The notes beneath the pieces are model-generated. The model had not been told where the DNA came from and ran no database searches. It saw only the letters and a list, made by a program, of their open reading frames with translations. Below, one piece after another: positions 5,404 through 40,584 of a stretch of 40,686 bases of DNA (positions are counted from its first letter, which is position 1; every line of letters starts with the position of its first letter). The translations under genes were made by a program, and so were the position numbers. Origin of the DNA: an uncultured Clostridia bacterium (GTDB lineage: Bacteria; Bacillota; Clostridia; Oscillospirales; Ruminococcaceae); the NCBI GenBank assembly GCA_947624575.1, contig CANQKY010000008.1, forward strand, positions 1-40,686. The letters are read 5' to 3'.

Positions 5404-5415
5404 GAATAGGACGAC

Positions 5416-5446
5416 AAAAGCGGCAACCTGCTCGGTTGCCGCTTTT
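5416..5446. terminator. Bidirectional intrinsic terminator
   Basis: A 13-bp perfect stem, AAAAGCGGCAACC (5416-5428) and its complement (5434-5446), with a 5-base loop and A/T runs on both sides, sits between the convergent GH20 and tag genes. It can serve both. Confidence 0.85.
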
Positions 5447-6040: not shown

Positions 6041-6042
6041 CG

Positions 6043-8883: not shown

Positions 8884-10856
8884 TATTCTTCGCCTTTCAG
8901 CTTTTTGATTTTATCCCGCAGATATGCCGCCTGCTCAAACTCCAATAGCTTGGCGGCGTACCGCATCTCACGCTCCAGCTTTTTGATCAGCGCCTCCCGC
9001 TCGTTTTTGGTCAGGCGTTTGCCGTTCTTTCCCCGTGCGTCGGAGGACGGCGCAGAAATTTCCAGTATCTCCCGCACATCTTTTTGGATCGTTTTCGGTG
9101 TGATCCCATGCTCCTCATTGTACGCCTGCTGGATCGAACGGCGGCGCAATGTTTCGCTGATTGCGTTCTCCATCGCCGGTGTAACGGTATCGGCATAGAG
9201 GATCACCTTTCCCTCGGCGTTTCGCGCCGCACGGCCAATCGTCTGCACCAGTGAAGTCTCGCTTCGCAAAAAGCCGGTCTTATCCGCATCGAGAATGCAG
9301 ACAAGGGACACCTCGGGCAGGTCCAGCCCCTCCCGCAGCAGGTTGATCCCGACCAGCACATCAAACTCGCCCAGCCGCAGATCGCGAATGATCTCCATTC
9401 GCTCCATGGTGTCCACATCATGGTGCATATACCGCACCTTGACCCCCATTCCCTCCAAAAAGGAGGTGAGGTCCTCCGCCATCTTTTTTGTGAGCGTAGT
9501 GATCAGCACCCGCTCGTTTTTCGCCGTCCGCAGATGGATTTCGGAGAGGATATCCTCAATCTGACCCTCGGTCGGCTTGACGATCACCTCGGGATCAAGC
9601 AGTCCGGTCGGACGGATCACCTGTTCCACCAGGCGGGTGCTGTGCTCCCGCTCAAACGGACCGGGCGTGGCGCTGACATAGATCACCTGCCCCAGCTTGC
9701 TGTAAAACTCATCAAAATCAAGAGGGCGGTTGTCATAGGCGGACGGAAGCCGAAAGCCGTAATCGACCAGCGTTTCCTTTCGGGCGCGGTCCCCGAAATA
9801 CATACCCCGCACCTGCGGAATGGTGACATGGGATTCGTCCACAATCAAAAGAAAGTCCTTTGGGAAGTGATCCAGCAGTGTAAACGGCATACTGCCCGCC
9901 GGTCTGCCGGACAGCACACGGGAGTAGTTTTCGATCCCCTTGCAGAAACCGATCTCGGTGAGCATTTCAATATCGTAGAGCGTCCGCTGGGAGATACGTT
10001 GTGCTTCCAGGAGCATACCCTTGCTTTCAAAATAGCGAATCCGTTCCTGCAATTCGTCCTCAATGTCACGGATCGCCTTTTGGAGCTTATCGGGCGGCAC
10101 GATATAATGGGAAGCGGGATAGATCGCCGCATGGGAAAGCGTTGCCTTCACCTCGCCGGTCAGGGTGTTCACCTCGCTGATCCGGTCGATCTCGTCCCCG
10201 AAGAACTCTACCCGAATGGCGGTATCGCCCGAATAGGCGGGAAAAATTTCCACCACATCGCCCCGCACCCGAAATTTATTTCGAACAAAATTGATGTCGT
10301 TTCGCTCATACTGAATCTCCACCAGCTTTTTGATCAGTTCCTCCCGCGATTTTTCCATGCCGGTGCGGAGACTGATGACCATATTCCGGTAATCGAGCGG
10401 ACTGCCAAGCGAATAGATGCAGGACACGCTGCTGACGATGACGACATCTCGCCGCTCCGCCAATGCCGAGGTAGCGGAGTGACGGAGCTTGTCGATCTCG
10501 TCGTTGATGGCGGAATCCTTTTCAATATAAGTATCGGTATTGGGGATATACGCTTCCGGCTGATAGTAATCGTAGTAGGAGACGAAGTATTCCACCGCAT
10601 TATGCGGAAAAAACTCCTTCAGCTCACTGCAAAGCTGTGCGGCGAGCGTTTTATTATGCGCCAGCACCAGCGTGGGACGGTTGACCGCGGCGATCACATT
10701 CGCCATGGTAAAGGTCTTGCCGGAGCCGGTCACCCCCATCAGGGTCTGCTCCTTATCGCCCCGTTTGATCCCCTCGACCAGCTTTGCAATCGCCTGCGGC
10801 TGATCGCCGGTCGGCTGATAGGGCGCTTGGAGGTCAAAGCTGTTTTTCTCGCTCAA
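8883..10856 (-). CDS. uvrB: Excinuclease ABC subunit B
   Basis: This 657-aa helicase-like subunit verifies lesions and recruits UvrC. Walker A is GVTGSGKT (about residues 40-47); the DNA-wedge beta-hairpin is [12 protein letters not shown] (about 91-102); helicase motifs [12 protein letters not shown] and QTIGRAARN follow; and a C-terminal UVR domain ([28 protein letters not shown]) binds UvrA/UvrC. It starts with TTG at 10856 behind GGTGGTGAG. A promoter with a LexA operator lies just upstream. It leads the uvrB-uvrA-tag operon. Confidence 0.98.
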
Positions 10857-10875
10857 TCTTGCTCACCACCGAAAA

Positions 10876-10922
10876 GAACAAATGTTCATATTTATTTTAT
10901 CATGTTTCTTTCGTGTTGTCAA
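10876..10922 (-). promoter_or_regulatory. SOS promoter of uvrB-uvrA-tag with LexA box
   Basis: On the minus strand TTGACA (10917-10922), a 17-bp spacer and TAAAAT (10894-10899) form a good sigma-A promoter. A perfect Gram-positive LexA/DinR operator, GAAC-AAAT-GTTC, covers 10876-10887 at about +1 to +12. The -35 lies inside the 3' end of the upstream DUF2500-like gene. Confidence 0.9.
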
Positions 10923-11247
10923 CCTGAAAGGAGGTAACGGCGCCGTCCGATTCCTCCAGTATGCCGCTCTCCCCCTCCTGCCAGAGAGAAAACTGCTCGG
11001 CGGTGACCCGCAGCTCTCGCCGGTCGCCGTTTTCGAGCAAGAATGCCGCATAATAGGCGATCCGGCTATCCCCTTGAGAGGGCAGCACGGCTGCCGCCTC
11101 GGTGCGGCGAGCGACCAGTGTGGCGCGAACGGGCGGTCTTGGTGTGGCGGCTTTTTTCCGATAAGCGCGCTCCATGACAATCAGCACCAGAAAAATCAGT
11201 GCCAGCACCAGAAAAGTATATCCGGCAAAAACAAGGATATCCCGCAT
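10900..11247 (-). CDS. DUF2500-like single-pass membrane protein
   Basis: This 115-aa protein has one N-terminal membrane helix (about residues 4-28, rich in L, I, V and F) followed by a small cytoplasmic or external beta domain with VRATLVARRTEA, YYAAFLLENGDRRELRV and LWQEGESGILE, the pattern of DUF2500 (YhhM-like) proteins. Function is unknown. The start at 11247 is chosen because AGGAGG stands 8 bases upstream; a GTG three codons earlier would overlap the ribosome site. It is on the same strand as uvrB, but uvrB has its own promoter in the end of this gene, so it need not be part of the SOS response. Confidence 0.75.
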   Translation of the reverse strand: MRDILVFAGYTFLVLALIFLVLIVMERAYRKKAATPRPPVRATLVARRTEAAAVLPSQGDSRIAYYAAFLLENGDRRELRVTAEQFSLWQEGESGILEESDGAVTSFQVDNTKET

Positions 11248-11289
11248 GGCTCTCACCTCCTTATCAGTTTACCACATTTTTGCGCCACG

Positions 11290-11331
11290 GACAAGTGACT
11301 GCTTGTCAAGAAGCAAAAAGTCTGGTATGAT
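11290..11331 (+). promoter_or_regulatory. Predicted pyrB promoter with inverted repeat over the -35
   Basis: TTGTCA (11303-11308), a 17-bp spacer and TATGAT (11326-11331) form a promoter with a leader of about 30 bases. The inverted repeat GACAAG-N6-CTTGTC (11290-11307) overlaps the -35 and could be an operator. The leader is too short for a PyrR-type attenuator. Confidence 0.6.
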
Positions 11332-11366
11332 AGGAATAAGGGAAAAACGGAAGGAAGTGCAGCTTT

Positions 11367-12434
11367 ATGTCGATCCGACATCTTATTGCTTTTCACGATC
11401 TTTCGATGCCGGAGTGGGAGGAGATCATCGACCTCGCGCTTCAAATCGAGGAAAAACCGGAGGATTTTTACGGCTGCTGTGAAAACAAGATCCTCGCCAC
11501 CCTCTTTTACGAGCCTTCGACCCGCACCCAGATGTCCTTCCAAACCGCCATGCTGCGGCTGGGCGGCAGAATCATCGGTTTCGACAACCCCAGCAACAGC
11601 TCGGTTGCCAAGGGGGAAAACCTCAAGGACACCATTCAGGTGGTCAGCGGCTATGCGGACATCATGGCAATGCGAAATCCGGTAGAGGGCTCCGCAAAGG
11701 CTGCCACACTCTTTTCGGGCTGTCCCGTTATCAACGCGGGGGACGGCGGACATCTTCACCCCACCCAGACGCTAACCGATCTGGTCACCCTCAAAAAGGA
11801 GGTCGGCACGCTGGACGGACTGACCGTCGGGCTGTGCGGCGATCTCAAATATGGGCGAACGGTCCACTCCCTGATTCAGGCGATGACCCATTTCCACACA
11901 AAGTTTATCCTGATCTCCACGCGGGAGCTCGCACTCCCCTCCTACTTAAAGGACACGATCCGCTCGGCAGGTTGTCGGTATGAGGAAATTTTCTCGCTGG
12001 AGGAAGCGATCGACAAGCTCGATGTGCTTTATATGACCCGTATCCAGCGGGAACGGTTCCCCTCGGAGGCGGAATACGAACGGCAAAAAAGCACCTATGT
12101 GCTGGATCGTAAAAAGCTTGCTCGGGCAAAAAGCAGCCTGAAGATTCTCCACCCGCTTCCCCGCGTGGACGAGGTTTTGGTGGAGGTGGACAGCGATCCC
12201 CGCGCCCTCTATTTTAAGCAGGCGATCTACGGCGTGTATGCCAGAATGTCGCTGATTCTTTTCCTGCTTCGTCAAACGGGCAGATACCGTCCCTTTGACG
12301 GAAAGGAGATCCCGCATGAGCGGTGCGGCAATCCCAACTGCGTCACAAATACAGAGGGGTATCTTCCCCACTACTTTTGCAATCACGGCGATATGCTGAC
12401 CTGTGAATACTGTGATGAGCGAAAACTGATATAA
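11367..12434 (+). CDS. pyrB: Aspartate carbamoyltransferase with C-terminal PyrI-like zinc motif
   Basis: This 355-aa enzyme joins carbamoyl phosphate and aspartate, the first committed step of pyrimidine synthesis. The ATCase active-site set is complete: YEPSTRT (the usual following Arg is Gln: STRTQMSF), the 80s loop SSVAKGENLKDT, AMRNP, HPTQTLTD, YGRTVHS, TRIQRERF and LHPLPRVDEV. After the usual catalytic-chain end the protein adds about 45 residues with C-x4-C-x20-C-x2-C (CGNPNC ... CEYC), closely like the zinc subdomain of the regulatory chain PyrI (CPNSNC ... CKYC in E. coli). No pyrI or other pyr gene is adjacent. A fused zinc module that substitutes for PyrI contacts is inferred. Start at 11367 follows AAGGAAG. 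Confidence 0.9.
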   Translation: MSIRHLIAFHDLSMPEWEEIIDLALQIEEKPEDFYGCCENKILATLFYEPSTRTQMSFQTAMLRLGGRIIGFDNPSNSSVAKGENLKDTIQVVSGYADIMAMRNPVEGSAKAATLFSGCPVINAGDGGHLHPTQTLTDLVTLKKEVGTLDGLTVGLCGDLKYGRTVHSLIQAMTHFHTKFILISTRELALPSYLKDTIRSAGCRYEEIFSLEEAIDKLDVLYMTRIQRERFPSEAEYERQKSTYVLDRKKLARAKSSLKILHPLPRVDEVLVEVDSDPRALYFKQAIYGVYARMSLILFLLRQTGRYRPFDGKEIPHERCGNPNCVTNTEGYLPHYFCNHGDMLTCEYCDERKLI

Positions 12435-12437
12435 CTT

Positions 12438-12475
12438 AAACGGTCTGCGGCTGCAAGGGCGGCAGACCGTTTTTA
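12438..12475 (+). terminator. Intrinsic terminator after pyrB
   Basis: AAACGGTCTGC (12438-12448) pairs with GCAGACCGTTT (12462-12472) and is followed by a T run. The hairpin ends only about 8 bases before the pcrA ribosome site, so pcrA translation signals begin where this terminator ends. Confidence 0.8.
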
Positions 12476-12492
12476 TGGACAGGAGCATGACA

Positions 12493-14844
12493 ATGGAGAT
12501 ACAAAGCTTACGAAAGCAAATCTTAGAGCAAAAATTCGGACGGCTGAACGAGCAGCAGCGGCAGGCGGTGTTTACGGCAAACGGACCGGTTCTGATTTTA
12601 GCAGGCGCGGGAAGCGGTAAGACCACCGTGCTGGTACAACGGGTCGCCTATCTGATCCGATACGGGAACGCCTATTTTTCCGATCACATTCCCGATTATA
12701 CCGAAGATGAACTCTCACTGCTTACTAAGGCAGCAAAAGGACAGCCCTGCGATGAGGGCGAGGTAGATCGGCTGCTGGCAGACCGTCCGGTATTCCCGTG
12801 GCATATTCTGGCGATCACCTTTACCAACAAAGCCGCCAACGAGATGAAGGACCGGCTGGAGCAGATACTGGGACCGGACGCCGCAAATGAAGTGACGGCA
12901 GGCACCTTTCACTCCTGCTGTGTGCGGATATTGCGGTGTGAGATCGAACTGCTGGGCTACAAAAGCAATTTTACTATTTACGATACCGATGATTCGGTGC
13001 GGGTGATGAAGCAGTGTATGCGGGATCAGAATATTGACGACAAGCTGTTCCCGCCGAAATCGGTTTTAACTTCGATCAGCCATGCCAAAGACAGCATGAT
13101 CAGCCCGCAGGCATATAAAAATGAAACCGGCGACGACTATCGAAAAAGTGTGATTGCAATATTATATAATGCCTATCAAAAGCGGCTGATGCAGGCAAAC
13201 GCGGTGGATTTTGACGATTTGATCCGGCTGACGGTGGAGCTGTTCACCAAATTTCCGGATCGGCTCGCCTATTATCAAAACCGGTATCGCTATCTGCTGG
13301 TAGACGAATATCAGGACACCAACCACGCCCAATACCGGCTGGTCAGCCTGCTTGCCGCCGAGCGGAAAAATATTTGCGTGGTCGGTGACGATGACCAGAG
13401 CATCTATCGCTTTCGGGGCGCCACCATCGAGAATATTCTGAGCTTTGAGGAGCAGTTTGCCGGTGCAAAGGTGATCCGTTTAGAGCAGAACTACCGCTCC
13501 ACCCAACCGATTTTGGACGCCGCCAATCGGGTGATCGCCAACAACCTCGGACGGAAGGGCAAGGAGCTTTGGACGGATCGGAAAAAAGGTGACAAAATCT
13601 ACTGCTATCGCGGCAAAAGTGAGCGGGACGAGGCGGACTTTATCGCGGAAACGGTGCTGAAAGATGTGGCAGCGGGCGGGAAATTCGGCGATCATGCCGT
13701 TCTCTACCGCATGAACGCACAATCCCAGAGCATTGAACAGCGGTTTCTCCGCTCCGGTATTCCCTACCGCGTGTTCGGCGGCACGAAGTTCTTTGACCGG
13801 AAAGAGATTCGGGACATCATCTCCTATCTCACCGTTCTGCAAAATCCGAGCGATGCGGTGAGACTGACCCGTATCATCAATGAGCCGAAGCGGGGAATCG
13901 GAGACACCACGGTGCAAAAAGCCGTTTCCATCGCTTCGGGAACAGAGCAATCGGTATACGAGGTGCTGCAAAGTGCTGACGCTTACCCCACGCTGGAAAG
14001 ATCGGCAGGAAAGCTGAAAGCCTTTACAGATTTGATCGAGCGGCTGAGAGTGCAGGTGGGAAATCTGACCCTCGACAAGCTGCTGGACGAAGTGATGCGG
14101 GAAAGCGGCTATGAGAAAATGCTGCTGGCACAGGGCGAGGAAGGCGCGATGCGGCTGGAGAATATTGCCGAGCTGAAATCCGCCCTGCTCAAATACGGCG
14201 AAGAAAACGATCCTACCGATCTTGCCGGATATTTGGAGGAGGTCGCGCTCTACACCGATCTTGACACCATGAATCAGGCGGAGGACTGCGTGGTTTTGAT
14301 GACTCTCCACTCCGCCAAGGGACTGGAGTTCCCGATCGTCTTTATTGCGGGCATGGAGGAAAATATCTTCCCTTCCTCCCGCAACCTTAAAAACGCCGCG
14401 GAATTGGAAGAAGAACGGCGGCTTGCCTATGTCGGCATTACACGCGCCAAGCAGAAGCTGTATCTCCTTTCCGCCGCCGAGAGAATGCTCTACGGCTCGG
14501 TCAGCCGAAACCCCGTTTCGCGATTTGTGGAGGAAATACCGATCGAGCTGCGCGATATGGAGGACGCCGCCTTTTCCCTGCGGACGCACCAAAAACCGAT
14601 GCGCACCTTTCCGCCCCGCAGAGGAACTGCTTCCGGCAGGACGGTCGGCATGGCAGCGAAGTCGGCAGAACAGACCGAAAGCCTTTCTTATACCATCGGA
14701 GATCGGGTGGTACACCGCGCATTCGGCGTCGGAACGGTTTTAAGCATGACCAAAATGGGAAACGACACGCTGGTGGAAATCGACTTTGACGGGATCGGAA
14801 AAAAGAAGATCATGGCAAACTTCGCCCGTCTCCAAAAAGAATAG
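12493..14844 (+). CDS. pcrA: UvrD/PcrA-type 3'-5' DNA helicase
   Basis: This 783-aa superfamily 1A helicase acts in repair and in clearing replication and transcription conflicts. Visible motifs: Q motif LNEQQRQAV, Walker A LAGAGSGKT (motif I), Ia ITFTNKAANEMKDRL, II LLVDEYQDTN, III VGDDDQSIYRFRGA, IV LEQNYRS, V VVLMTLHSAKGLEFP and VI RRLAYVGITRAK. A C-terminal Tudor-like segment (GDRVVHRAFGVGTVLSM) is the PcrA RNA-polymerase-binding module. The start at 12493 is preferred: AGGAG at 12481-12485 gives 7-base spacing; ATGs at 12475 and 12487 are in frame but badly placed. No private promoter is seen; it may depend on readthrough from pyrB or a promoter inside it. Confidence 0.95.
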   Translation: MEIQSLRKQILEQKFGRLNEQQRQAVFTANGPVLILAGAGSGKTTVLVQRVAYLIRYGNAYFSDHIPDYTEDELSLLTKAAKGQPCDEGEVDRLLADRPVFPWHILAITFTNKAANEMKDRLEQILGPDAANEVTAGTFHSCCVRILRCEIELLGYKSNFTIYDTDDSVRVMKQCMRDQNIDDKLFPPKSVLTSISHAKDSMISPQAYKNETGDDYRKSVIAILYNAYQKRLMQANAVDFDDLIRLTVELFTKFPDRLAYYQNRYRYLLVDEYQDTNHAQYRLVSLLAAERKNICVVGDDDQSIYRFRGATIENILSFEEQFAGAKVIRLEQNYRSTQPILDAANRVIANNLGRKGKELWTDRKKGDKIYCYRGKSERDEADFIAETVLKDVAAGGKFGDHAVLYRMNAQSQSIEQRFLRSGIPYRVFGGTKFFDRKEIRDIISYLTVLQNPSDAVRLTRIINEPKRGIGDTTVQKAVSIASGTEQSVYEVLQSADAYPTLERSAGKLKAFTDLIERLRVQVGNLTLDKLLDEVMRESGYEKMLLAQGEEGAMRLENIAELKSALLKYGEENDPTDLAGYLEEVALYTDLDTMNQAEDCVVLMTLHSAKGLEFPIVFIAGMEENIFPSSRNLKNAAELEEERRLAYVGITRAKQKLYLLSAAERMLYGSVSRNPVSRFVEEIPIELRDMEDAAFSLRTHQKPMRTFPPRRGTASGRTVGMAAKSAEQTESLSYTIGDRVVHRAFGVGTVLSMTKMGNDTLVEIDFDGIGKKKIMANFARLQKE

Positions 14845-14852
14845 TTTTCCGG

Positions 14853-14880
14853 CACCTTTTTGTCATCGCCGCCATAGAAT
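14853..14880 (+). promoter_or_regulatory. Possible sporulation sigma (SigK/SigE-like) promoter
   Basis: CACC (14853-14856), a 16-bp spacer and CATAGAAT (14873-14880) resemble the mother-cell sigma pattern (AC-rich -35, CATAnnnT -10). No sigma-A promoter fits here. The match is short and could be chance. Confidence 0.35.
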
Positions 14881-14928
14881 GTAGGGAAAGCGATATGCTT
14901 TTACTACTCTTAATCAGGAGGACTTTCT

Positions 14929-15756
14929 ATGGCAGCAGATAACTCATTTGCCCCACTCGGCGGCGGAAGCGGCTCCAACTGCTTCAAAGAGGCTGTCTGC
15001 ATCGACACCGGGCGGATCTACGACTCATGCAGCGACAAGGACTGTTTGGAAGATCTGCGGGTAACCTTTACCGATGCGGGACAGCAGATCATTGATCAGG
15101 CGATCAGTGTAAAAAGCCGGCACATCACCGTATTGAATGTATTTATGGACGTAGAGCCGGTTCCGTTCAACACAGGCTTTTATTCGGTGGATATGACCTT
15201 CTTCTTCCGAGTAGAGCTGGAAGCGTACTTATCTCCGATGTGCAGCCCGACCCCTGTTTGCGGGCTTGCCACCTTCAGCAAAAAGGTGATCCTCTACGGC
15301 AGTGAGGGAAGCGTGAAAACCTTTTCCTCAGTCATGTGGGGTATGCCCGACGAGAGTGGCGGTAACTTCCCCGCCAATCTCCCGCTTGCGCGGGTGCAGG
15401 TGGTGGATCCGATCTGTCTCGCCTGCCGGCTGTGCGAATATTCGCCCTGCTGCGGGGAACCGATCGTCAATATCCCCGACCGGATCGCGGCAGCCTTTGA
15501 AGGCAATTTTGCGGCAAACAACGACAACCGAAGCAATGTGGTTTTGATCACCATCGGCTTGTTCTCGATTGTCCAGCTGGAGCGCGAGGTACAGATGATG
15601 GTGCCGATCTACGATTTCAGTATTCCGGATAAGGAATGCACCACCACGACCGACGATCCCTGCGAGCTGTTCAAGCAGATCAAGTTTCCGGTCAACGAGT
15701 TTTTCCCGCCCCGACTTGATCCCGACGCCTGCGACGAAACGCCGCCGACCGTATAA
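14929..15756 (+). CDS. Cysteine-rich protein of unknown function, possible spore-surface protein
   Basis: This 275-aa protein has no signal peptide or membrane helix and contains 14 cysteines in clusters: SNCFKEAVC and DSCSDKDC near the N-terminus, MCSPTPVC in the middle and CLACRLCEYSPCC at about residues 163-176, with three more in the tail. I do not recognise a named family. The spacing is irregular for a ferredoxin, and the protein otherwise looks like beta-rich structural sequence. Cysteine richness, single-gene layout and an upstream CATAGAAT element together suggest a coat or exosporium-type protein made in the mother cell, but this is inference. AGGAGG precedes the start; hairpins follow. 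Confidence 0.75.
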   Translation: MAADNSFAPLGGGSGSNCFKEAVCIDTGRIYDSCSDKDCLEDLRVTFTDAGQQIIDQAISVKSRHITVLNVFMDVEPVPFNTGFYSVDMTFFFRVELEAYLSPMCSPTPVCGLATFSKKVILYGSEGSVKTFSSVMWGMPDESGGNFPANLPLARVQVVDPICLACRLCEYSPCCGEPIVNIPDRIAAAFEGNFAANNDNRSNVVLITIGLFSIVQLEREVQMMVPIYDFSIPDKECTTTTDDPCELFKQIKFPVNEFFPPRLDPDACDETPPTV

Positions 15757-15765
15757 GAAGCAAAA

Positions 15766-15794
15766 AAATCCCGCCCCCAAAAGGGACGGGATTT
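15766..15794 (+). terminator. Hairpin after the cysteine-rich gene
   Basis: AAATCCCGCCCC (15766-15777) and GGGACGGGATTT (15783-15794) form a 12-bp stem with one mismatch and a 5-base loop. It lies 10 bases after the stop codon. The downstream T run is weak. The sequence is nearly identical to the hairpin at 16027-16068. Confidence 0.6.
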
Positions 15795-15795
15795 G

Positions 15796-15989
15796 AGCGT
15801 GGCGATACCATCGCCACGCTTCGAGGGACAAACACAATCGCTTCACTCGCTAAAGCTCGCCTTGCTCTTTGTTTTTCCCCCGATTCCCCCTTTTCGTCGA
15901 AAACCGGCTTGGCTTGCGCCAATTCTGACACCGCCTGCACCGGTTTTCTCTCAAGGTGTCACTGCGGCGGTACATGCCGCCTCCGTGAC
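15796..15989. repeat. Cluster of inverted repeats between two matching hairpins
   Basis: Between the two matching hairpins lie three further inverted repeats: AGCGTGGCGAT-ACC-ATCGCCACGCT (15796-15820, 11-bp perfect stem), GAAAACCGG (15899-15907) with CCGGTTTTC (15940-15948), and GTCAC...GTGAC (15958-15989) enclosing GGCGG-TACATG-CCGCC. No credible gene is present. It may be a small non-autonomous repeat element, a structured RNA or both. Confidence 0.5.
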
Positions 15990-27887: not shown

Positions 27888-29312
27888 TTACATCGACATG
27901 ACTTCCTGATAAAGCCCCAAATAGGCATCGGCGGAGCGGGTCCAGCTGTAATCGCACTTCATGGCGTACCGCACCAAAGCTCTCCAATCCTTCTTATTCT
28001 CATACACGCCCTTGGCGCGATAAAGCGCATCGAGCATCTCATGCGCGTTGTAGTTGGCAAAGGTAAAGCCATTGCCCTCACCCAGCGAGCAATCGAACAC
28101 GCTGTCCTTTAATCCCCCAGTTTCCCGCACGACCGGAATGGTGCCGTACCGCAAGGCGATCATCTGTGCCAATCCGCAGGGCTCGCTTTGGGACGGCATC
28201 AGGAAGATATCCGCGCCCGCATAAATCTTCTTGGCAAGCGCGGGGATAAAGCCCAGTATCGTTGCCACCTGATCGGGGTGCGCGTCCCGCATCTGGGAGA
28301 AGAAATGCTCATACCCGCAGTCGCCCGAGCCGAGGATCACCACACGGAAGCCTGCGTTGATGATGTCCTCAAACACGCACTGAATGAGGTCGATCCCCTT
28401 ATGGGCGACCAGACGGCTGACAATGCCGATGACCGGTGCCTCCTGATCGGCGGGCAGACCCACCTCCTGAAGCAGGTCCAGCTTATCCTTTTTCTTACCG
28501 GACATGGCGCGGACGCTGTAATGCGCCGCAATGCCGGTATCGGTTTCGGGATTATGCACATCGGTGTCGATCCCGTTTAGGATACCGCAGAGCTTAAACT
28601 GATAGTCCCGCAGAATCCGATCCAGTCCGTGGGCATACCACGGGTCGAGAATCTCCTGTGCATAGGTCGGGCTGACGGTGGTCACCTTATAGGAAAGCTG
28701 GATCGCCGCCTTCATCAGGTTGACGCACTGATCGTATTCCATCACGCCGTTCATGCTTTCGGGAATGCCCCATACCTCACGGAGCAATTCCTTTCCATAC
28801 TTGCCCTGATAGGCGATATTATGGATCGTGAAGATGGTTTTCATGCCAGCATACTCCGGCTGATACTTATAGATCGAATCATAATAAACCGGCACCAGGG
28901 CAGACTGCCAGTCATTGGCATGGAGGATATCCGGCTTCCACGGCAGATACCGGAGCATTTCCAGCACACCGCGGGAGAAGAATGCAAACCGCTCGGCATC
29001 GTCATAATAGCCGTACAGCCCGGGACGGGAGAAATAATACTCATTATCCAGAAAATAATAGGTCACGCCGTCCACTTCCGCCTTGAACAGCCCGCAATAC
29101 TGCTTCCGCCAGCTGACATCGACCAGGAAATTGGTGATATAGGTGATCTTCTCCCGCATTTCCGGCTTGATGTCGCTGTAAAGCGGCAGGACCACATGGC
29201 ACTCCACATCAGGCAGCTTATTCAGCGCCTTGGGCAGAGAGCCTGCCACATCTGCCAGTCCACCCGAAGCGATAAAGGGCTGCGCCTCACTGGAAATATA
29301 CAGAATATTCAT
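27888..29312 (-). CDS. glgA: Glycogen synthase (ADP-glucose type)
   Basis: This 474-aa GT5 glucosyltransferase extends alpha-1,4-glucan chains using ADP-glucose. The N-terminal half begins MNILYISSEAQPFIASGGLADV (substrate-binding GGLADV), with FTIHNIAYQG and ILHANDWQSALVP; the C-terminal half has GIVSRLVAHKG, the MPSQSEPCGLAQMIALRYG sugar-binding segment and VRETGGL. Length is normal. AAAAGGAGG precedes the start. It is the last gene of glgB-glgC-glgD-glgA, all on the minus strand with 12-33 base gaps, and ends at a strong terminator. Confidence 0.96.
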   Translation of the reverse strand: MNILYISSEAQPFIASGGLADVAGSLPKALNKLPDVECHVVLPLYSDIKPEMREKITYITNFLVDVSWRKQYCGLFKAEVDGVTYYFLDNEYYFSRPGLYGYYDDAERFAFFSRGVLEMLRYLPWKPDILHANDWQSALVPVYYDSIYKYQPEYAGMKTIFTIHNIAYQGKYGKELLREVWGIPESMNGVMEYDQCVNLMKAAIQLSYKVTTVSPTYAQEILDPWYAHGLDRILRDYQFKLCGILNGIDTDVHNPETDTGIAAHYSVRAMSGKKKDKLDLLQEVGLPADQEAPVIGIVSRLVAHKGIDLIQCVFEDIINAGFRVVILGSGDCGYEHFFSQMRDAHPDQVATILGFIPALAKKIYAGADIFLMPSQSEPCGLAQMIALRYGTIPVVRETGGLKDSVFDCSLGEGNGFTFANYNAHEMLDALYRAKGVYENKKDWRALVRYAMKCDYSWTRSADAYLGLYQEVMSM

Positions 29313-29325
29313 ACTGTACCTCCTT

Positions 29326-30444
29326 TTATACCGTTGCGCCTTTGCTGATATAGATCGGATAGGTTTCCGCGCCGATCAGACTTTTGCCGTCCCGCACCAT
29401 CACATCTTTATCCGCAATGACGCAGTGTACCTCGCAGTTTTTCCCGACCGTTGTTCCCTGCAACAGGATCGAATCCTTGACGACCGCGCCCTTTTGGACA
29501 TGAACGCCGCGGAACAGGATCGAATTTTCCACCTGCCCCTCCACGATACAGCCGTCCGCCATCAGGCAGTTGCGAACGGTGGAATCCAGTCCGTATTTCA
29601 CCGGCACCTCATCGTGAATTTTAGTAAAAACGGGACGATCCTCTGGAAACAGCTTTTCCCGCACACTGCTGTCAAGCAGGCTGAGATTTGCATGATAGTA
29701 ATCTCTCATCGTGGTGATCCGATAAGCGGCGGAATCACAGGAATAGCCGAAAATCTTCAGCTCGTCCTTCCGCTTCTGAATGATATGCTGATCGAAGCTG
29801 TACTCGCCGCGGCTGACCGCCTCCTCCACCAGATTCAGCAGGAGCGACTTTTCGATAATCAGCAGATTCAGTCCGCTGTTGAACTCACCGCTGACATTGG
29901 CGTGCATCATCACATCGATCACCCGACCATTGGGGTCGAAGGCGAAAATGGTGCTGTGGGACGCGGCGTCCACGCTCAGCCATTTTCTTTGATAGGCAAC
30001 GGTGATATCCGCGCCGCTTTCGATATGCTGCTCCAGCATCGGGCGGTAGTCCATATTATAGATCACGCTGCTGTCCGATATGATCACATATCTGGCGCGG
30101 GAACGCCGCAGGAAATCCATGGCGTTCACCATCGACTCCAGATGACCGCGGCAAATCCTGTTCTGATCCAGTGGGGGCAGAATATGAAGCCCCTCCCGCT
30201 TGCGGGCAAGATCCCATTCCCGTCCCGCCGCCACATGGTCCATCAGCGCCTGATAATTGTTCTCGGTGACAAGACCTACCTCGGTCACACCGGAATTGAC
30301 CATATTGGAAAGCGCAAAATCCACAAAGCGATACCGTCCGCCAAACGGAATGGAGCCGAGCGCACGCACGGAAGCCATTTCGGGAACAGCGCCGTCATGG
30401 TTGCCTGTAAAGACAATGCCCATCATTTTTGTTGTATTGACCAT
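29326..30444 (-). CDS. glgD: ADP-glucose pyrophosphorylase regulatory subunit
   Basis: This 372-aa GlgC paralogue has the nucleotidyltransferase N-domain (GSIPFGGRYRFVDFALSNMVN) and a C-terminal left-handed beta-helix with hexapeptide-like repeats (VRNCLMADGCIVEGQVENS). It lacks the nucleotide-binding signature GGxGxRL at the N-terminus, reading VFTGNHDGAVPE instead, which marks the GlgD form found in Firmicutes. There GlgD pairs with GlgC and raises its activity rather than catalysing alone. Position directly after glgC fits. Confidence 0.93.
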   Translation of the reverse strand: MVNTTKMMGIVFTGNHDGAVPEMASVRALGSIPFGGRYRFVDFALSNMVNSGVTEVGLVTENNYQALMDHVAAGREWDLARKREGLHILPPLDQNRICRGHLESMVNAMDFLRRSRARYVIISDSSVIYNMDYRPMLEQHIESGADITVAYQRKWLSVDAASHSTIFAFDPNGRVIDVMMHANVSGEFNSGLNLLIIEKSLLLNLVEEAVSRGEYSFDQHIIQKRKDELKIFGYSCDSAAYRITTMRDYYHANLSLLDSSVREKLFPEDRPVFTKIHDEVPVKYGLDSTVRNCLMADGCIVEGQVENSILFRGVHVQKGAVVKDSILLQGTTVGKNCEVHCVIADKDVMVRDGKSLIGAETYPIYISKGATV

Positions 30445-30456
30445 AGCTCTCCCCTC

Positions 30457-31653
30457 CTATGCCTCCACCATTGCCTTGGGCGGAATGACCTCGCCCGACT
30501 TCACCTCAACATCGGGACCGACCACCGAAAGTCCCCAGGTGTCCTTGTCCTCGATCTGCTCCGGACGAGCGCCGACCTTCGCATTTTCACCGATCACCGC
30601 GTTCTCCCCGATGATGGAATACTCCACCACCGCGCCTGCCTTAATGGTCGTGCCCGGCATGACGATGCTGTCCCGCACCACCGCGCCTTCCTCTACCGTG
30701 ACGCCGGCAAACAGCACCGAGAAATCGATGGTGCCGTATACGCTGCAGCCCTCGGTGATCATCGAGTTTTGCACCATTGCCTCGGAGGAAATATAATGCG
30801 GCGGACGAACCGGATTGCGGGAATAAATCTTCCAGGAAGGATCGTACAGCTCCAGCGGCACTCTTGGATCGAGCAGGTCCATATTCGCCTCCCACAGCGA
30901 ATCGATCGTGCCGACATCTTTCCAGTACCCGACAAACGGATAGGCATACAGAGATTCCTGATTGTTCAGCATATGCGGAATGATGTCCTTTCCGAAATCA
31001 TTGTGGGAATTTGGATCGGCATTATCCGCGATCAGATATTCCCGCAGCTTCTTCCAGCTGAAAATATAAATTCCCATCGAAGCCAGATTGCTTTTCGGCT
31101 CGTCCGGCTTCTCCTGAAACTCGAAAATCTTGCCGTCGCCGTCCGCGTTCATGATGCCGAAACGGGAAGCTTCCTCCATTGGCACCTCCAGCACCGCAAT
31201 GGTGGCGTCCGCCTTTTTCTGCTTATGGAAGCGGAGCATTTTATCATAATTCATTTTGTAGATGTGGTCGCCCGAAAGGATCAGCACATACTCCGGCTGA
31301 TACCGGTCGATGAACGAGATGTTCTGATAGATCGCATTGGCAGTACCGAGATACCATTCCGCGCCGCTGGCGGTCTGATAGGGCGGCAGCACATGAACGC
31401 CGCCATGCACCCGATCCAAATCCCACGGTTGTCCGGTTCCGATGTACTCGTTGAGTACCAGCGGCTGATACTGGGTCAGCACACCTACCGTATCGATCCC
31501 CGAATTGACGCAGTTGGAAAGCGGAAAATCGATGATCCGATATTTACCGCCGTACGGCACGGCAGGCTTGGCTACCTGACGGGTCAGCGCGTAAAGACGG
31601 CTTCCCTGCCCTCCTGCCAACAGCATCGCCACACACTCTTTTTTATGAAACAT
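30457..31653 (-). CDS. glgC: Glucose-1-phosphate adenylyltransferase
   Basis: This 398-aa enzyme makes ADP-glucose from glucose-1-phosphate and ATP. Visible: [14 protein letters not shown] (nucleotide loop), [19 protein letters not shown], the glucose-1-phosphate region [24 protein letters not shown] with the metal Asp, and a C-terminal beta-helix ([14 protein letters not shown]). All key motifs are intact, unlike GlgD. GGGAGGAAATAC precedes the ATG at 31653. Confidence 0.96.
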
Positions 31654-31686
31654 ATGTATTTCCTCCCTGAAGCTGCCCGCAGGCTC

Positions 31687-33639
31687 TTATTTTTTCTTGG
31701 TTGCAGTTTTGGTATCCTTGCCCGCCGGCTTTTTTGCCGCTCTCGGCTTACCCTTGAGGTAAAGCACCGAAAGCCCCGGAAGGGTCAGCGCGATCGACTG
31801 GTCAAAGCCGTGCATCGGCGCTTTCCGATTGACGCGAACGGCACGGGGATTCCCTTCCCCGTTCCCGCCGAACGCAAGATCATCGGTATTGAAAATCTCC
31901 TTATAGGAGCTTGCGTCCGGCACGCCGATCGAATAATCGGTGCGGGTGACCGGCGTGAAATTGCAGACCACGATGATGTCCTCGCCCTTGTCGTTGATCC
32001 GCCGGAAGCTGATGACGCTTTGAGAGGTGTCGTCATTCGAAATCCAGTTGAAGCCCTCCCAGGAGTCGTCACGCTGCCAGAACTCGCTGTGCTCCAGATA
32101 GAACCGGTTGAGCACCTCGGTAAAGTGCCGCATCTTCTGGTGCGCCGGATATTGCAGCAGAAGCCAGTCCAATTCCTGCTTATAGTTCCACTCGATAAAC
32201 TGCCCAAATTCCTGCCCCATAAAGGTCAGCTTCTTGCCGGGGTGCGCCATCATATAGGCGAGCAGCGTACGCACACCGGCAAACTTCTGCTCATAATCTC
32301 CCGGCATCTTGTTGATGAGCGAGCATTTGCCGTGTACCACCTCATCATGGGAGAGCGGCAGAATGTAATTCTCCGAAAACGCATAGAAGAACGAAAAGGT
32401 GATCTTCCCGTGATTGCCGGAGCGATACAGCGGATCCATCGACATATAGTCCAGCGTATCGTTCATCCAGCCCATGTTCCACTTGAAGTTGAAGCCGAGC
32501 CCGCCGTCCGAAGCCGGACAGGTCACAAGCGGCCATGCGGTCGATTCCTCGGCGATCATCATAGCGCCCGGGTGAAGGGTCAGCACCGTCTCGTTGAGCT
32601 GACGCAAAAACGCGATCGCTTCGAGATTCTCCTTGCCGCCGTACTTGTTGGGCGACCATTGCCATTCCTCGCGGTTGTAATCGAGATAGAGCATGGAGGC
32701 AACGGCGTCCACCCGAAGCCCGTCCATATGGTATTTTTCCATCCAGAAATTGGCGCTCGAGATCAGGAAGCTGCGCACCTCGGTGCGACCGTAGTCGAAT
32801 ACCCGTGTCCCCCATTCGGCGTGCTCGCGCTTCTGCACATCTTCGTATTCGTAGCACATGCCGCCGTCGAACTCACACAGCCCGAATGCGTCCTTCGGGA
32901 AATGCGCCGGCACCCAGTCGAGGATCACGCCGATTCCGGCGCGGTGACAGGCGTCCACAAACGCCATAAATTCGTGCGGCGTACCGTAGCGGGAGGTCGG
33001 CGCGAAATATCCGGTCACCTGATAGCCCCAAGACCCGTCATAGGGATACTCGGTGATCGGCATCAGCTCGATATGAGTATAGTGCATCTCCTTGACATAG
33101 GGGATCAGGTCGCGGGCAAGCTGCTCATAGCTGAACACATTCCCGTCCTGATAAACCCGCCATGAGCCGATATTCATCTCGTAGATATTCATGGGAGTTC
33201 TTCTCGGGTCATGCTGATTCCGCTTGCTCAGCCATTCCCCGTCGCCCCACTCGTAGCCCGATATGTCGTAAATCTTCGACGCCGTACCCGGACGCAATTC
33301 GGCATGCGTGGCATAGGGGTCCGCCTTGTCGATGATGTCACCGTAGGCAGTTTCGATACTGTATTTATATAAGGCATACTCCTCCAGATCGGGGATAAAG
33401 CATTCCCATACTCCGCCGTCATGGATTTTAAGCATCTGATGCACGGTGCGATCCCAGTGATTGAAGTCACCCACGACCGATACCGACTTTGCGTGCGGCG
33501 CCCATACGCGGAAGGTGATCCCCCGATTGCCGCAGAGCACCTCCGGGTGCGCTCCGAAAAAGTCATATGCGTTGCTGCTTGTTCCCTGAAAATATGCGTC
33601 CATTGCATCTTGCATACTTTTTTGCCGTCCGCCAGACAT
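31687..33639 (-). CDS. glgB: 1,4-alpha-glucan branching enzyme
   Basis: This 650-aa GH13 enzyme creates alpha-1,6 branches in glycogen. An N-terminal CBM48 domain (about 20-115; GITFRVWAPHAKSVSVVGDFN) precedes the barrel with region I DWVPAHF, nucleophile D in GLRVDAVASM, acid E in IAEESTAW and LSHDEVVHGK. The C-terminal all-beta domain ends in a lysine- and alanine-rich tail of about 20 residues (RAAKKPAGKD, TATKKK) not needed for the fold. First gene of the glg operon; GGGAGG precedes the ATG at 33639 and a sigma-A promoter lies about 30 bases above that. Confidence 0.96.
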   Translation of the reverse strand: MSGGRQKSMQDAMDAYFQGTSSNAYDFFGAHPEVLCGNRGITFRVWAPHAKSVSVVGDFNHWDRTVHQMLKIHDGGVWECFIPDLEEYALYKYSIETAYGDIIDKADPYATHAELRPGTASKIYDISGYEWGDGEWLSKRNQHDPRRTPMNIYEMNIGSWRVYQDGNVFSYEQLARDLIPYVKEMHYTHIELMPITEYPYDGSWGYQVTGYFAPTSRYGTPHEFMAFVDACHRAGIGVILDWVPAHFPKDAFGLCEFDGGMCYEYEDVQKREHAEWGTRVFDYGRTEVRSFLISSANFWMEKYHMDGLRVDAVASMLYLDYNREEWQWSPNKYGGKENLEAIAFLRQLNETVLTLHPGAMMIAEESTAWPLVTCPASDGGLGFNFKWNMGWMNDTLDYMSMDPLYRSGNHGKITFSFFYAFSENYILPLSHDEVVHGKCSLINKMPGDYEQKFAGVRTLLAYMMAHPGKKLTFMGQEFGQFIEWNYKQELDWLLLQYPAHQKMRHFTEVLNRFYLEHSEFWQRDDSWEGFNWISNDDTSQSVISFRRINDKGEDIIVVCNFTPVTRTDYSIGVPDASSYKEIFNTDDLAFGGNGEGNPRAVRVNRKAPMHGFDQSIALTLPGLSVLYLKGKPRAAKKPAGKDTKTATKKK

Positions 33640-37323: not shown

Positions 37324-37353
37324 AAAAACGGCGGGCGAAAGCCCGCCGTTTTT
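37324..37353 (-). terminator. Terminator after the peptide gene
   Basis: AAAAACGGCGGGC (37324-37336), loop GAAA, and its complement (37341-37353) with a T run on the minus strand. It ends the secreted-protein/peptide transcript before the exporter promoter. Confidence 0.85.
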
Positions 37354-37439: not shown

Positions 37440-37592
37440 TCACATGGAATCCCAACTAGCCTCGCCGCTGCCTTGCTCGAGACCGGATTGAATAAAATCC
37501 AGATCACTGCCGTTCGACACATCAGCCATTATGGGATCAGTCGATAGAAAGGTGACGATCTCAAATTTCGGTGTCTCATATTCCTTTTTCAT
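37440..37592 (-). CDS. 50-aa peptide with YxxP leader-like motif
   Basis: A 51-codon gene begins at an ATG preceded by AAAGGAGG at ideal spacing, 17 bases after the stop of the large secreted-protein gene. The product starts MKKEYETPKFEIVTF and ends in GSGEASWDSM; the middle is acidic and Ser/Gly/Asp rich. There is no signal peptide. The Y5-x-x-P8-x-F10 pattern recalls the leader motif that RiPP recognition elements bind in lasso-type precursors, and similar short KKxYxxP proteins are frequent in gut Clostridia. No maturation enzyme is in the window, so precursor status is only a hypothesis. A terminator follows about 90 bases on. Confidence 0.7.
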   Translation of the reverse strand: MKKEYETPKFEIVTFLSTDPIMADVSNGSDLDFIQSGLEQGSGEASWDSM

Positions 37593-37609
37593 CTTGATTC
37601 GTCCTCCTT

Positions 37610-40438
37610 TCAACCAAGACTCGTTGCGCTAGCTACTTTTGCTTCAGTAGAAGCCGTCTCTGCGTCCAACGTTTTCAAAGTGGCTTTCAAAGTAAAGTCA
37701 GCGGGAACCCCATTGCTGAAGTGTACGGTCATGGTGTAATACCCGTTGGAGAATGTGATATCATGTGTCTTAAGCTCTTTGTTCTGGGTCTCACCGGAAG
37801 AACCTGTGATCACAAGCTGAACATCGCCGACCTGCAAACCAACGGCATCGGCATCGCGCCACTCGAACACGACCACAAAGTCGTCGCCGTAAATGTTCGA
37901 ACTGTAAACATTCAGTGTCGGCTGTTTATGAACAGGAGCACTTTCATCGACATACACGGCAGTGTAAAGAGCTTCTGAGCCGCCTTCGGATAATGCGAAA
38001 ATCTCAAGCTTATTCTCATAGGAGACGATATAATGCGAATCGGCACCGCCCTTGAGCCAGTGGGAGAATTTCTTGCCCGCGATATCAGGCGCTTTCAGCG
38101 TTACCTGTGCGCCCGCATCAACTTCCAAATTACCGGTCATTGATTGATCACCACTAGAAATGGTGACCTGACCCTCAGCATCGAAAACAACACCCTTAAC
38201 ATTTACTTTCGAGACAGTAGCAGGGGTATTTGCCACATAGATCGGTGCAATCACCACTTCTTCAGACTTCAACAAGATAGAAGCAGCAGCAGCACCTTCA
38301 CCATTGATGTCGGCTTCACCAGTCACGGTCTTCCAGCCGGCAAAGGAGTAGCCCAGCTTTGCGGGAACTGCTGCGCGGGCTGTGGACAAATCTACCGTAT
38401 AATTGTTGTTGGTGATACCGGCTTTTTCGGACCAGAACGGCTCACCGTACGGCTCCGTATCATTCGGAACTGCCTTTACGGTACGCATATCCTCGGTATA
38501 GATTGGAGTAAAGGTGACTTCGCCGGTGATGGTGTAGGTGTTTTCGTGAACCTCGTACGCATAATCTAACGGATCGACGTGCCAATTGCTAAAGGTGAAA
38601 CCGGGGATTGTCTCTCTATAAGATGTCAGATCAATTTCTTTTCCATCGGTGATCGATTGAGTTTCAATATCATGTCTGGTCGCACCGGGGACATCTGTTT
38701 CTTCTTCGCCAACCAAATACTTCGGCGGTTTGATTGTAACTGTGTGCTTCGGGATCTCCTCAAAGGTGGCGGAAGGAGCAGCTCCTTCGGTCGCGGTAAA
38801 GGAGACTTGATCTTCCTTCACTTGACCTTCTTTGTCCGGAACATTTTCCCAGACAGTCTGCATACCCTCAGCCGGGTGAGCAGTCAAGGTGATTTGAGCA
38901 CCCTCTTTCACCTGCAAAGAAGGATTCGCAGTATGATCCAAGCCTTTCCAGTTAATTGCATTACCGCCATTGCTCTCTGCGTCTACCGCCACATCAAGCG
39001 TACCGCCCTCGGCAACCGTGGGCTTCACATTGACGATAGAAGTCTCAGGGTCAAAAGTGCCGGTATCGGTTTCTACTACATAAAGTCCATTGACTGTAAT
39101 AGTACCGCCGAGAGGGTGGTCTCCAGAGCCTTCACCAAAACCTATCTGCAACCATTTTACATCAGACAAACTACCAATAGTAGTATTGCTCGGATTGGAT
39201 AAATCAAAGTCAACTGTTGCGGTATTTTGATCCCACGAAATAAATTGATTATTGGAAGACGGGGTGGGACTTCCTACTTTAGGTGGCTCAACGATATAAC
39301 CGTTATCTGAGTAAAGCTTTACATTCCAATTTGAGCAATTTAATCCATTCCCTTTTGTAAATTTACAAATAACATGAGACTGCTCAGTAAGTTTTGACCC
39401 ATCAACGGCAACAAAAATATTTGATGCCCAGTCATGTGCGGAAGGATCATTGATGGTAAATGTGGCTGTTCCTTCTGCTACATTTACATCAAAACAGGAA
39501 GTATTACTACCAAGTTTTGCATCGCTTTCAGAAGTCAGCGGATTTTGATATGTGGTGTAGGAGCTGACAGCTTTAACATCGGGTGCTTGGCTGTAGAAAC
39601 CAATGTTATCAACTTGGAAAATATCGTTATCAGTGGTTTTGTATTTTCCTGAGAAATTTTGATAATTCCAGCTTAATTGGACATAAACATAAGAACCATT
39701 TGTTTGATTGTATGTATCAACATTGCTTATGCCAAAATCGCTCCACGGATAGAAAAACTTTAATGGTTCAGTTGGAGAGATGTCAGCAATATCACTGTCT
39801 TGAAATTGAAACGGAGAGTGTTTCTTCCATTCAGAATCAGTAATATTGGTGGCAACTGTTTTCGTTGTTTTGGCGATTTCAACATACCTGTTGGCATCAC
39901 CATAACCTGCATAAACAGGAACAGTAGAATATACTTCAAAATAAAGTCCTTCACCAGATAACTGAGTGGCATCAAGTTTTATATTGATACGAGTATAGAC
40001 ATTGACATTATTAGCGTCGGTTAAATCACCAATGATATCGCTACCTTTCAATTGAAGTGATTTAGAATTACCAATGCCATTATCAACAATATAGGTGGGA
40101 AAATATTGATTTGCCCAATTTGCCTTATCACCTTTAGTATCAGATGTTACATAAGTATAGTTTTCAAAATCCTGCTTGATATCGACGGTGTATTTTCCAC
40201 CGTTCCATTCGACAATATCCCCAGTTGCCGCAGTCGCTGCCGGGACATCTGCCGCAGGAGCGGCTTCCGCCACGGGAGCAGCTTCCTCCGCTGTCGGTGC
40301 TACTTCCTCCACCGCCGCAGTCGGCGCCGGTGCTGCGCCCGCCCCGCCGCAATCTGCCGCCACCGCCGTAAACGACGGCAGTACCGAAGACGCGAGCAGC
40401 GCGCAGGACAGCAGCATACTCAACCATTTTTTCTTCAT
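37610..40438 (-). CDS. Large secreted multi-domain surface protein
   Basis: This 942-aa protein has a signal peptide (MKKKWLSMLLSCALLASS to about residue 30), a low-complexity Ala/Pro/Glu linker (about 35-75), two carbohydrate-binding-like beta-sandwich stretches (about 80-290 and 295-450), and a series of InlB B-type or bacterial Ig-like repeats (about 460-850) with FSNWHVDP, YSFAGWKTVTG and FSHWLKGGADSHY, then a final beta domain. There is no LPXTG sorting motif, dockerin or C-terminal membrane anchor, so attachment to the cell is unclear. The start at 40438 follows GAAGGG and gives the signal peptide; an upstream in-frame start would add nine basic residues. Function likely adhesion or glycan binding, inferred from fold types. 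The interior (about 39230-40160) is distinctly AT-rich. Confidence 0.8.
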   Translation of the reverse strand: MKKKWLSMLLSCALLASSVLPSFTAVAADCGGAGAAPAPTAAVEEVAPTAEEAAPVAEAAPAADVPAATAATGDIVEWNGGKYTVDIKQDFENYTYVTSDTKGDKANWANQYFPTYIVDNGIGNSKSLQLKGSDIIGDLTDANNVNVYTRINIKLDATQLSGEGLYFEVYSTVPVYAGYGDANRYVEIAKTTKTVATNITDSEWKKHSPFQFQDSDIADISPTEPLKFFYPWSDFGISNVDTYNQTNGSYVYVQLSWNYQNFSGKYKTTDNDIFQVDNIGFYSQAPDVKAVSSYTTYQNPLTSESDAKLGSNTSCFDVNVAEGTATFTINDPSAHDWASNIFVAVDGSKLTEQSHVICKFTKGNGLNCSNWNVKLYSDNGYIVEPPKVGSPTPSSNNQFISWDQNTATVDFDLSNPSNTTIGSLSDVKWLQIGFGEGSGDHPLGGTITVNGLYVVETDTGTFDPETSIVNVKPTVAEGGTLDVAVDAESNGGNAINWKGLDHTANPSLQVKEGAQITLTAHPAEGMQTVWENVPDKEGQVKEDQVSFTATEGAAPSATFEEIPKHTVTIKPPKYLVGEEETDVPGATRHDIETQSITDGKEIDLTSYRETIPGFTFSNWHVDPLDYAYEVHENTYTITGEVTFTPIYTEDMRTVKAVPNDTEPYGEPFWSEKAGITNNNYTVDLSTARAAVPAKLGYSFAGWKTVTGEADINGEGAAAASILLKSEEVVIAPIYVANTPATVSKVNVKGVVFDAEGQVTISSGDQSMTGNLEVDAGAQVTLKAPDIAGKKFSHWLKGGADSHYIVSYENKLEIFALSEGGSEALYTAVYVDESAPVHKQPTLNVYSSNIYGDDFVVVFEWRDADAVGLQVGDVQLVITGSSGETQNKELKTHDITFSNGYYTMTVHFSNGVPADFTLKATLKTLDAETASTEAKVASATSLG

Positions 40439-40555: not shown

Positions 40556-40584
40556 AGTATATACCAATATTTTGTGGTTGTCAA
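40556..40584 (-). promoter_or_regulatory. Predicted sigma-A promoter of the secreted-protein operon
   Basis: On the minus strand TTGACA (40579-40584), a 17-bp spacer and TATACT (40556-40561). The leader of about 110 bases is GC-rich with a few short hairpins (TGCC-TGTT-GGCA); I could not match it to a known riboswitch. Confidence 0.8.

Follow-up and report, generated by a model that had tools for sequence, protein, structure and literature searches.

A short YxxP peptide encoded behind a secreted repeat protein is a candidate precursor in an RRE-dependent, RiPP-like system of Clostridia

Introduction

What is the product of a 50-amino-acid gene that lies directly behind the gene for a large secreted repeat protein and close to an ATP-binding cassette (ABC) exporter? 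The question arises from a 40,686-nucleotide stretch of DNA (hereafter, the window; contig CANQKY010000008.1 of assembly GCA_947624575.1) from an uncultured Clostridia bacterium of the Ruminococcaceae. An initial annotation made from the letters alone pointed to a short reading frame (P0001) with a leader motif reminiscent of lasso peptides. It proposed that P0001 encodes either the precursor of a ribosomally synthesized and post-translationally modified peptide (RiPP) or a small partner of the secreted protein (P0002). Comparison with related genomes leads us to favor, at a probability of roughly 0.6, a reading in which P0001 is a precursor in a leader-guided, RiPP-like system that depends on a RiPP recognition element (RRE), lacks the protease and cyclase of lasso peptide biosynthesis, acts in trans, and pairs its peptides with surface proteins. 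We infer the modification, cleavage, and partnership of the peptide; its translation is likewise predicted.

Results

The peptide gene and its family

The product of P0001 starts with MKKEYETPKFEIVTF and ends with GSGEASWDSM. Its 50-amino-acid frame, ribosome-binding site, and tight linkage to the secreted protein are all as the initial annotation described them, judging from translation, sequence, and coordinates. Both genes are on the minus strand, and 17 nucleotides (nt) separate the stop codon of P0002, which lies upstream, from the start codon of P0001. The peptide is single-copy in its own genome, where P0001 is the sole match to ATGAARAARNNNTAYNNNNNNCCN.

When P0001 was used alone as a query against 197 genomes of the host's family, only its own genome gave a significant match (next E value, 0.017). 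A genome scan with P0001 yielded one relative (L019), a 54-amino-acid peptide in a Ruminococcus metagenome-assembled genome that likewise starts with MKKEYETP and is encoded 26 nt behind the gene for a secreted repeat protein of 2330 amino acids. The gene after this peptide (L019:8162-9118) appears by eye to encode a secreted leucine-rich repeat (LRR)-like protein with a dockerin-like repeat. A loose degenerate DNA pattern run on 396 genomes gave mostly chance matches, from which 20 regions picked by eye provided five relatives that could be recognized by then; all five lie directly behind a secreted protein or, in one case, behind a small lipoprotein that follows one. A profile built from these five peptides, that of L019, and that of the window identified the peptide in 52 of 396 genomes of the host's family. 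With a second profile, built from 30 peptides, 32 of the 278 genomes sampled from the class proved positive; these 32 span 18 families. Phage records contained two weak matches and plasmid records none. Searches of Pfam and NCBIfam with 30 members returned marginal matches at best, and the weak top ones include lasso and thiopeptide precursors.

The conserved part of the family, as defined by 75 unique peptides from which that of the window was excluded, reads (K/E)-x-x-Y-x-x-P-E-(M/L)-E-(I/V)-(I/V)-x-F-(E/D)-x-E-D-(V/I)-I-T-T-S. The Tyr is present in 72 of the 75 peptides, the Pro in 68, the Phe in 71, and the Asp, Ile, and final Ser in 72 each. Column conservation drops beyond the ITTS block, the pattern of a conserved leader followed by a variable core. 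Tails after the conserved Ser have a median length of 14 residues (range, 6 to 27) as delimited by a regular expression that misplaced the block in at least one peptide (G245:C71), and tails are net negative in 75 of 75 peptides with a recognizable block.

The leader part of P0001 (YETPKFEIVTF...) aligns with the family block; YxxP and the Phe are retained, and the EDVITTS portion is degenerate. Relatives in G131 and G360, two genomes that carry the exporters nearest to that of the window, are also irregular in the EDVITTS region. The tail of P0001 is net negative and has a Trp close to its C-terminus, a feature that is merely a trend in the family (13 of 77 unique peptides). The profile of 75 relatives scores P0001 at 25.5 bits (E value, 2.7e-6), compared with 10.9 bits for the best of 5000 shuffled controls. 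Among 382 open reading frames (ORFs) of the window, the only further match is the P0001 frame with an earlier start. From these alignments, P0001 is best classified as a divergent member of the YxxP/EDVITTS family. P0001 has no match in Pfam or NCBIfam, as might be expected if it were a small frame arising by chance behind the gene of a surface protein; its profile score, ribosome site, and terminator and the same location of its relatives make that explanation extremely improbable.

Maturation genes and their co-occurrence with the peptide

A first look at the surroundings of the peptide in G135 and G360 revealed genes for an HprK-like kinase, a small protease, an ABC exporter, and an NTP_transf_5 nucleotidyltransferase, joined in G135 by a PqqD-type RRE. 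All five maturation genes are found in G131 and G360. The initial annotation held that its reading would be refuted by homologues that never lie near maturation genes. This is not the case: in many genomes the homologues are adjacent to genes for the kinase, the RRE, the exporter, the protease, and the nucleotidyltransferase. A radical S-adenosylmethionine (SAM) gene, which it had also suggested, is not part of the set.

A profile built from four kinases matched 67 of the 396 genomes of the host's family and 81 of the 278 genomes of the class. Kinase and peptide occur together far more often than chance would allow. In the family, 46 genomes have both, 6 the peptide only, 21 the kinase only, and 323 neither (Fisher p 5e-37); after removal of six training genomes, the counts are 40, 6, 21, and 323 (p 1e-32). 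The corresponding counts for the class, with the window's own genome excluded, are 30, 1, 50, and 196 (p 1.6e-17). Two of the six peptide-only genomes of the family, G301 and G376, look like false matches, as their frames lack the block; we kept both in the Fisher counts and omitted them from the counts of genomic context. Of 41 kinase matches, which were in part selected for holding a peptide, 36 have PqqD within 8 kilobases, 32 the protease, 21 ABC genes, 17 NTP_transf_5, and 23 the peptide. In 20 regions selected by the kinase alone, PqqD is present in 16 and the peptide in 5.

The P-loop GxGKST is kept in 40 of 41 kinases, which fall below the cut-offs of the Pfam and NCBIfam kinase models. 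The protease contains SM.P in 32 of 32 sequences and an HR(I/V/L) match in 31 of 32. These motifs place it with the signal-peptidase-like enzymes of the Ser-His type (GxSMxP...HR; signal peptidase I, endoplasmic reticulum type, S26B), of which it is a predicted member. The nearest NCBIfam models, all below cut-off, are a lasso PqqD for the RRE, ScmC for the kinases, and an archaeal-type signal peptidase (TIGR02228) for the protease.

Peptides can greatly outnumber kinases. Matches to the two number 14 and 3 in G304 and 12 and 2 in G336 of the host's family, and 25 and 2 in G610, 16 and 2 in G412, and 15 and 1 in G411 of the class. Because many precursors are distant from the maturation genes, the few maturation loci, if they function as their sequences predict, must serve many dispersed precursors in trans.

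Maturation genes in the window's own genome

Contig C77 of this assembly carries the kinase, RRE, and protease genes consecutively, and the RRE exceeds the cut-off of PF05402 (PqqD-type RRE). Two NTP_transf_5 genes are located on contig C24. The exporter in the window (P0003) carries the LSEGQ signature reported initially and is separated from P0001 by a terminator-like hairpin; its Pfam matches include no peptidase domain. Against the exporters that belong to the G131, G360, and G135 clusters, P0003 scores 425, 399, and 327 bits, respectively, and none of the other ABC proteins in these genomes, in G059, or in its own genome exceeds 195 bits against it. P0003 is thus the ortholog of the exporters of complete clusters and no incidental neighbor. 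Since genes of the set are found on C77 and C24 and an exporter ortholog lies in the window, the system is present in this genome, although split among contigs.

Upstream of P0002, the contig of the window extends another 248 nt and then ends. It is possible that C77 directly adjoins this contig (C8) in the divergent layout found in L072, L075, L103, and L104. Macrodomain-like and SIR2-like genes, identified by eye, precede the kinase in G059, which weighs against assuming such adjacency. The start of C77 (L085:1-730) is repetitive by eye, with copies of a GGATTCCTCTTTCGGTTTTCGC... unit, and this repeat is a likely cause of the contig break.

Relationship to lasso peptides

According to two studies, leaders of the YxxPxL type are bound by the RREs of lasso peptide systems, the RRE helps an HprK-like kinase to phosphorylate a Ser of the precursor, and nucleotidyltransferases attach hexoses to that phosphate (PMC10368454, PMC8498205). 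RREs recognize W/Y/LxxP/L/I sequences (PMC7470986, PMC12710340). Clusters for phosphorylated or phosphoglycosylated lasso peptides (paeninodin, pseudomycoidin, and Bsf) share with the present set the YxxPxL leader, a stand-alone PqqD-type RRE, an HprK-like kinase, a nucleotidyltransferase, and an ABC exporter (PMC8498205, PMC10368454, PMC7533575). By analogy, the present set resembles the tailoring half of such a cluster. It differs in having a signal-peptidase-like protease instead of the B2 protease and cyclase, many dispersed precursors behind secreted proteins, and a conserved EDVITTS block.

These shared genes would suit an ordinary precursor of the paeninodin type, a possibility that the following results render very improbable. 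PF13471, the transglutaminase-like B2 lasso protease, exceeded its cut-off in none of 32 of the 67 kinase genomes, the window's own included; three weak sub-threshold matches were found among these 32. One AsnB query detected no asparagine synthase-like cyclase in 40 kinase loci (best E value, 0.14), and the AsnB-like gene near a peptide of G390 is in a region devoid of kinase and RRE. Only 24 of 75 peptides have a Gly immediately after the conserved Ser, and many tails are too short for threading. The lack of a lasso protease in these 32 genomes and of a cyclase in these 40 loci indicates that these are not lasso peptides, and a lasso identity was rejected. Thus, the leader half of the initial lasso hint, the YxxP motif, held up and the lasso half did not.

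Pairing with secreted proteins

We analyzed 80 of the listed peptide sites, selected mostly by E value, and dropped one (6 amino acids). Of the remaining 79 peptides, 68 are preceded on the same strand by an ORF of 150 or more amino acids whose end is no farther than 200 nt away; in 63 of these cases the distance is at most 60 nt (median gap, 18 among the 63). A signal peptide was called in 55 of 61 upstream ORFs complete on their contigs (seven contig-cut ORFs were excluded) and in 200 of 673 control ORFs from the same regions, using a crude hydrophobicity rule that is liberal on controls. The wider class, sampled through 20 regions, shows an upstream ORF in 20 of 20 and a signal peptide in 17 of 17 that are untruncated.

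The partners include BspA-type LRR (LRR_5), InlB-repeat, Cthe_2159, and transglutaminase-like proteins. P0002 is of the InlB-repeat type, with a divergent PF18998 repeat that scores 25.9 bits against a cut-off of 23.6. None of 68 partners, P0002 included, has an LPxTG motif in its last 60 residues. A profile detected an unnamed C-terminal domain of ~100 residues in 47 of the 68. This domain, which ends in ...LKNLVKALYxYxxAAxxY, was seen in L071, L074, L091, L106, L112, L115, L127, and others. Among the 55 unique proteins that bear it, 51 have no more than 20 residues between the end of the domain and the C-terminus. A peptide is encoded within 650 nt downstream of 51 of these 55, compared with 22 of the 598 remaining long ORFs in these regions; these figures derive from regions picked for peptides or kinases and do not represent a survey.

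Tails and partners also appear to vary together. Between genomes, similarity of peptide tails tracks similarity of partner C-termini (r 0.25; 0 of 2000 permutations). The within-genome value (r 0.71) is probably inflated by duplicate loci. One locus (L092:7954-8496; G205:C18) encodes an in-frame fusion of a small lipoprotein, which has a Ser/Thr-rich spacer, to a full YxxP/EDVITTS peptide; an internal start codon could also yield the peptide alone. Small Ser/Thr-rich lipoproteins with LPFVP- or WGPLVP-like ends are found beside peptide genes in L072, L074, L091, L112, L123, and L129, and some of these ends resemble the tail of the adjacent peptide. The sharing of tails between peptides and lipoproteins gave a permutation p of 0.0035, which is merely a lead, as three or four pairs drive it and the test includes repeated rows and some doubtful lipoprotein calls.

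Given the pairing with secreted proteins, we consider it more likely that the mature tail has a role with the surface protein than that it is a free signal. An alternative is that the peptides are free RiPPs, either signals or antimicrobials, that share only a promoter with surface-protein genes and have no physical partnership with their products. Genes for an RRE, a kinase, and an exporter are typical of RiPP clusters, and the highly variable tails resemble the cores of toxins or signals. We nevertheless regard this explanation as unlikely in view of the nearly universal secreted gene directly upstream (in both the family sample and the 20 wider-class regions), the covariation of tails with partner C-termini, the lipoprotein fused to a complete peptide, and several tails of 6-7 residues.

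The opposite alternative, that the small protein is an unmodified accessory of the secreted protein such as a chaperone or an anchor and that the kinase, RRE, and protease have other substrates, would also account for the tight pairing. It would further explain why most peptides are encoded away from maturation genes and why the kinase match is missing in some peptide genomes. The strong co-occurrence with the kinase and the overlap or adjacency in many loci run counter to it, as does YxxPxL being the known target of PqqD-type RREs; this makes the accessory role quite unlikely. The two proposals of the initial annotation, RiPP-like precursor and surface-protein partner, are thus supported together, the first by linkage to maturation genes and the second by pairing with secreted genes, with modification following by inference.

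Table 1 Features of the peptide locus in the window.
Feature	Position	Strand	Basis
ABC exporter P0003, 553 amino acids	35552..37213	-	ABC_membrane and ABC_tran domains, LSEGQ motif
Intrinsic terminator-like hairpin (13 pairs and T run) between P0001 and exporter	37324..37353	-	
Peptide gene P0001, 50 amino acids	37440..37592	-	Translation, family profile
Variable tail of P0001, residues 27-50 (putative core)	37443..37514	-	Sequence, tails of relatives
Leader-like part of P0001, residues 1-26 (predicted extent)	37515..37592	-	Profile alignment, model positions 1-23
Shine-Dalgarno-like AAAGGAGG, 5' of P0001	37603..37610	-	Sequence
Large secreted protein P0002, 942 amino acids, directly upstream of P0001	37610..40438	-	Translation
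Listeria-Bacteroides repeat PF09479, below cut-off, P0002 residues 674-705	38324..38419	-	
Divergent InlB B-repeat PF18998, P0002 residues 508-562	38753..38917	-	
Signal peptide of P0002, residues ~1-28	40355..40438	-	By eye, crude heuristic
Promoter-like site upstream of P0002, 11/12 sigma-70-like	40556..40584	-	Consensus match only

Discussion

Our results suggest a model, built largely on analogy with phosphorylated lasso peptides, in which the PqqD-type RRE would bind YxxPxM/L and present the peptide to the kinase. The kinase would phosphorylate Ser or Thr residues of the ITTS block or the tail, and the NTP_transf_5 nucleotidyltransferase may place a sugar on that phosphate. The protease would cut after the conserved Ser, where the closing T-x-S of the block places small residues at -3 and -1, a pattern compatible with an enzyme related to signal peptidases. 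The exporter would release the acidic tail, which could act with the cognate surface protein produced from the same transcript. The function of the mature tail is the least certain part of this model. It is tempting to speculate that these RRE-guided peptides form a class of their own. Rather than being free natural products, the mature peptides would then be dedicated modules, phosphorylated or phosphoglycosylated, that partner surface proteins: every adhesin-like protein would come with a small acidic tag, and one trans-acting machine would mature and export all the tags of the cell; we offer this extension only tentatively.

Several observations weigh against the favored reading. The peptide of the window itself lacks the canonical EDVITTS block, and the C-terminal domain that other partners commonly have is missing from P0002, as it is from the L019 protein. 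Some tails are just 6-7 residues long. The kinase, RRE, and protease are on contigs other than that of the window, in an assembly of 160 contigs with 4.82% contamination. G059, a genome of the same genus, has the kinase, RRE, and protease and neither a peptide match nor a close exporter. The peptide occurs in only a quarter (5/20) of the kinase-selected regions, and conversely four genomes of the family (G176, G281, G309, and G366) and one of the class (G653) have a peptide and no kinase match. Finally, joint inheritance can explain the covariation of tails and partners.

We would place the system, on the basis of sequence comparison, among RRE-dependent peptide systems, with its apparent novelty residing in the pairing with surface proteins. 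RRE-dependent RiPPs in general, as covered by RRE-Finder and a structure-based survey, similarly have a discrete PF05402 RRE beside enzymes and an exporter (PMC7470986, PMC12710340). In the present set, we recognized no enzyme that defines any of the known RiPP classes, and surface-protein pairing is added. The SynChlorMet cassette is another point of comparison: ScmC is the first-listed NCBIfam match of three of three kinases tested, and ScmD, a PqqD relative, weakly matches the RRE of the window's genome. Both matches are far below cut-off; no SynChlorMet member exceeds it, and the set has no radical SAM gene. In prochlorosin-type systems, a single set of maturation enzymes likewise serves, in trans, numerous scattered precursors that have a leader in common. 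The present set differs in its surface-protein partners and in that a lanthionine synthetase is, as far as seen, not part of it. The partners share InlB repeats, LRR_5, Cthe_2159, and transglutaminase-like domains with the InlB/BspA-type surface proteins of gut Clostridia, from which they are set apart by the lack of LPxTG (68 checked) and by the unnamed domain in which many of them end.

The family has up to 25 matches per genome and occurs in 18 families of the class, yet it is apparently unnamed. A search of open-licence full text in PubMed Central, a scope that excludes subscription journals and preprints, retrieved no paper describing this gene set, and we know of no other place where such peptides are paired with surface proteins. 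If our model is correct, it would join the fields of RiPP maturation and surface proteins, which to our knowledge have not been joined before. It would also assign a testable role to many 'hypothetical' peptides and to unnamed genes for HprK-like kinases, PqqD, S26-like proteases, and NTP_transf_5. A further consequence would be caution in genome mining, where RRE loci of this kind may be counted as lasso clusters with missing parts.

The window's genome encodes additional clusters of related composition. One of these (L086; G000:C1:12000-31000), identified partly by eye at 6845-15892, is a further cluster of peptide type with an M16-like peptidase, a sub-threshold PqqD, a distant HprK-like protein, an ABC protein, NTP_transf_5, and a radical SAM protein. 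Another (L087; G000:C1:74000-90000) was recognized by eye at 523-14605; besides carrier-like proteins, it encodes an AMP-binding protein, a radical SAM-like protein, a PqqD-like protein that passes the cut-off, and two ABC exporters, of which one seems to include a peptidase domain. Elsewhere in the window, a 1311-amino-acid open frame on the plus strand (29230..33165) lies antisense to glycogen genes of the minus strand and is most likely an artifact of composition.

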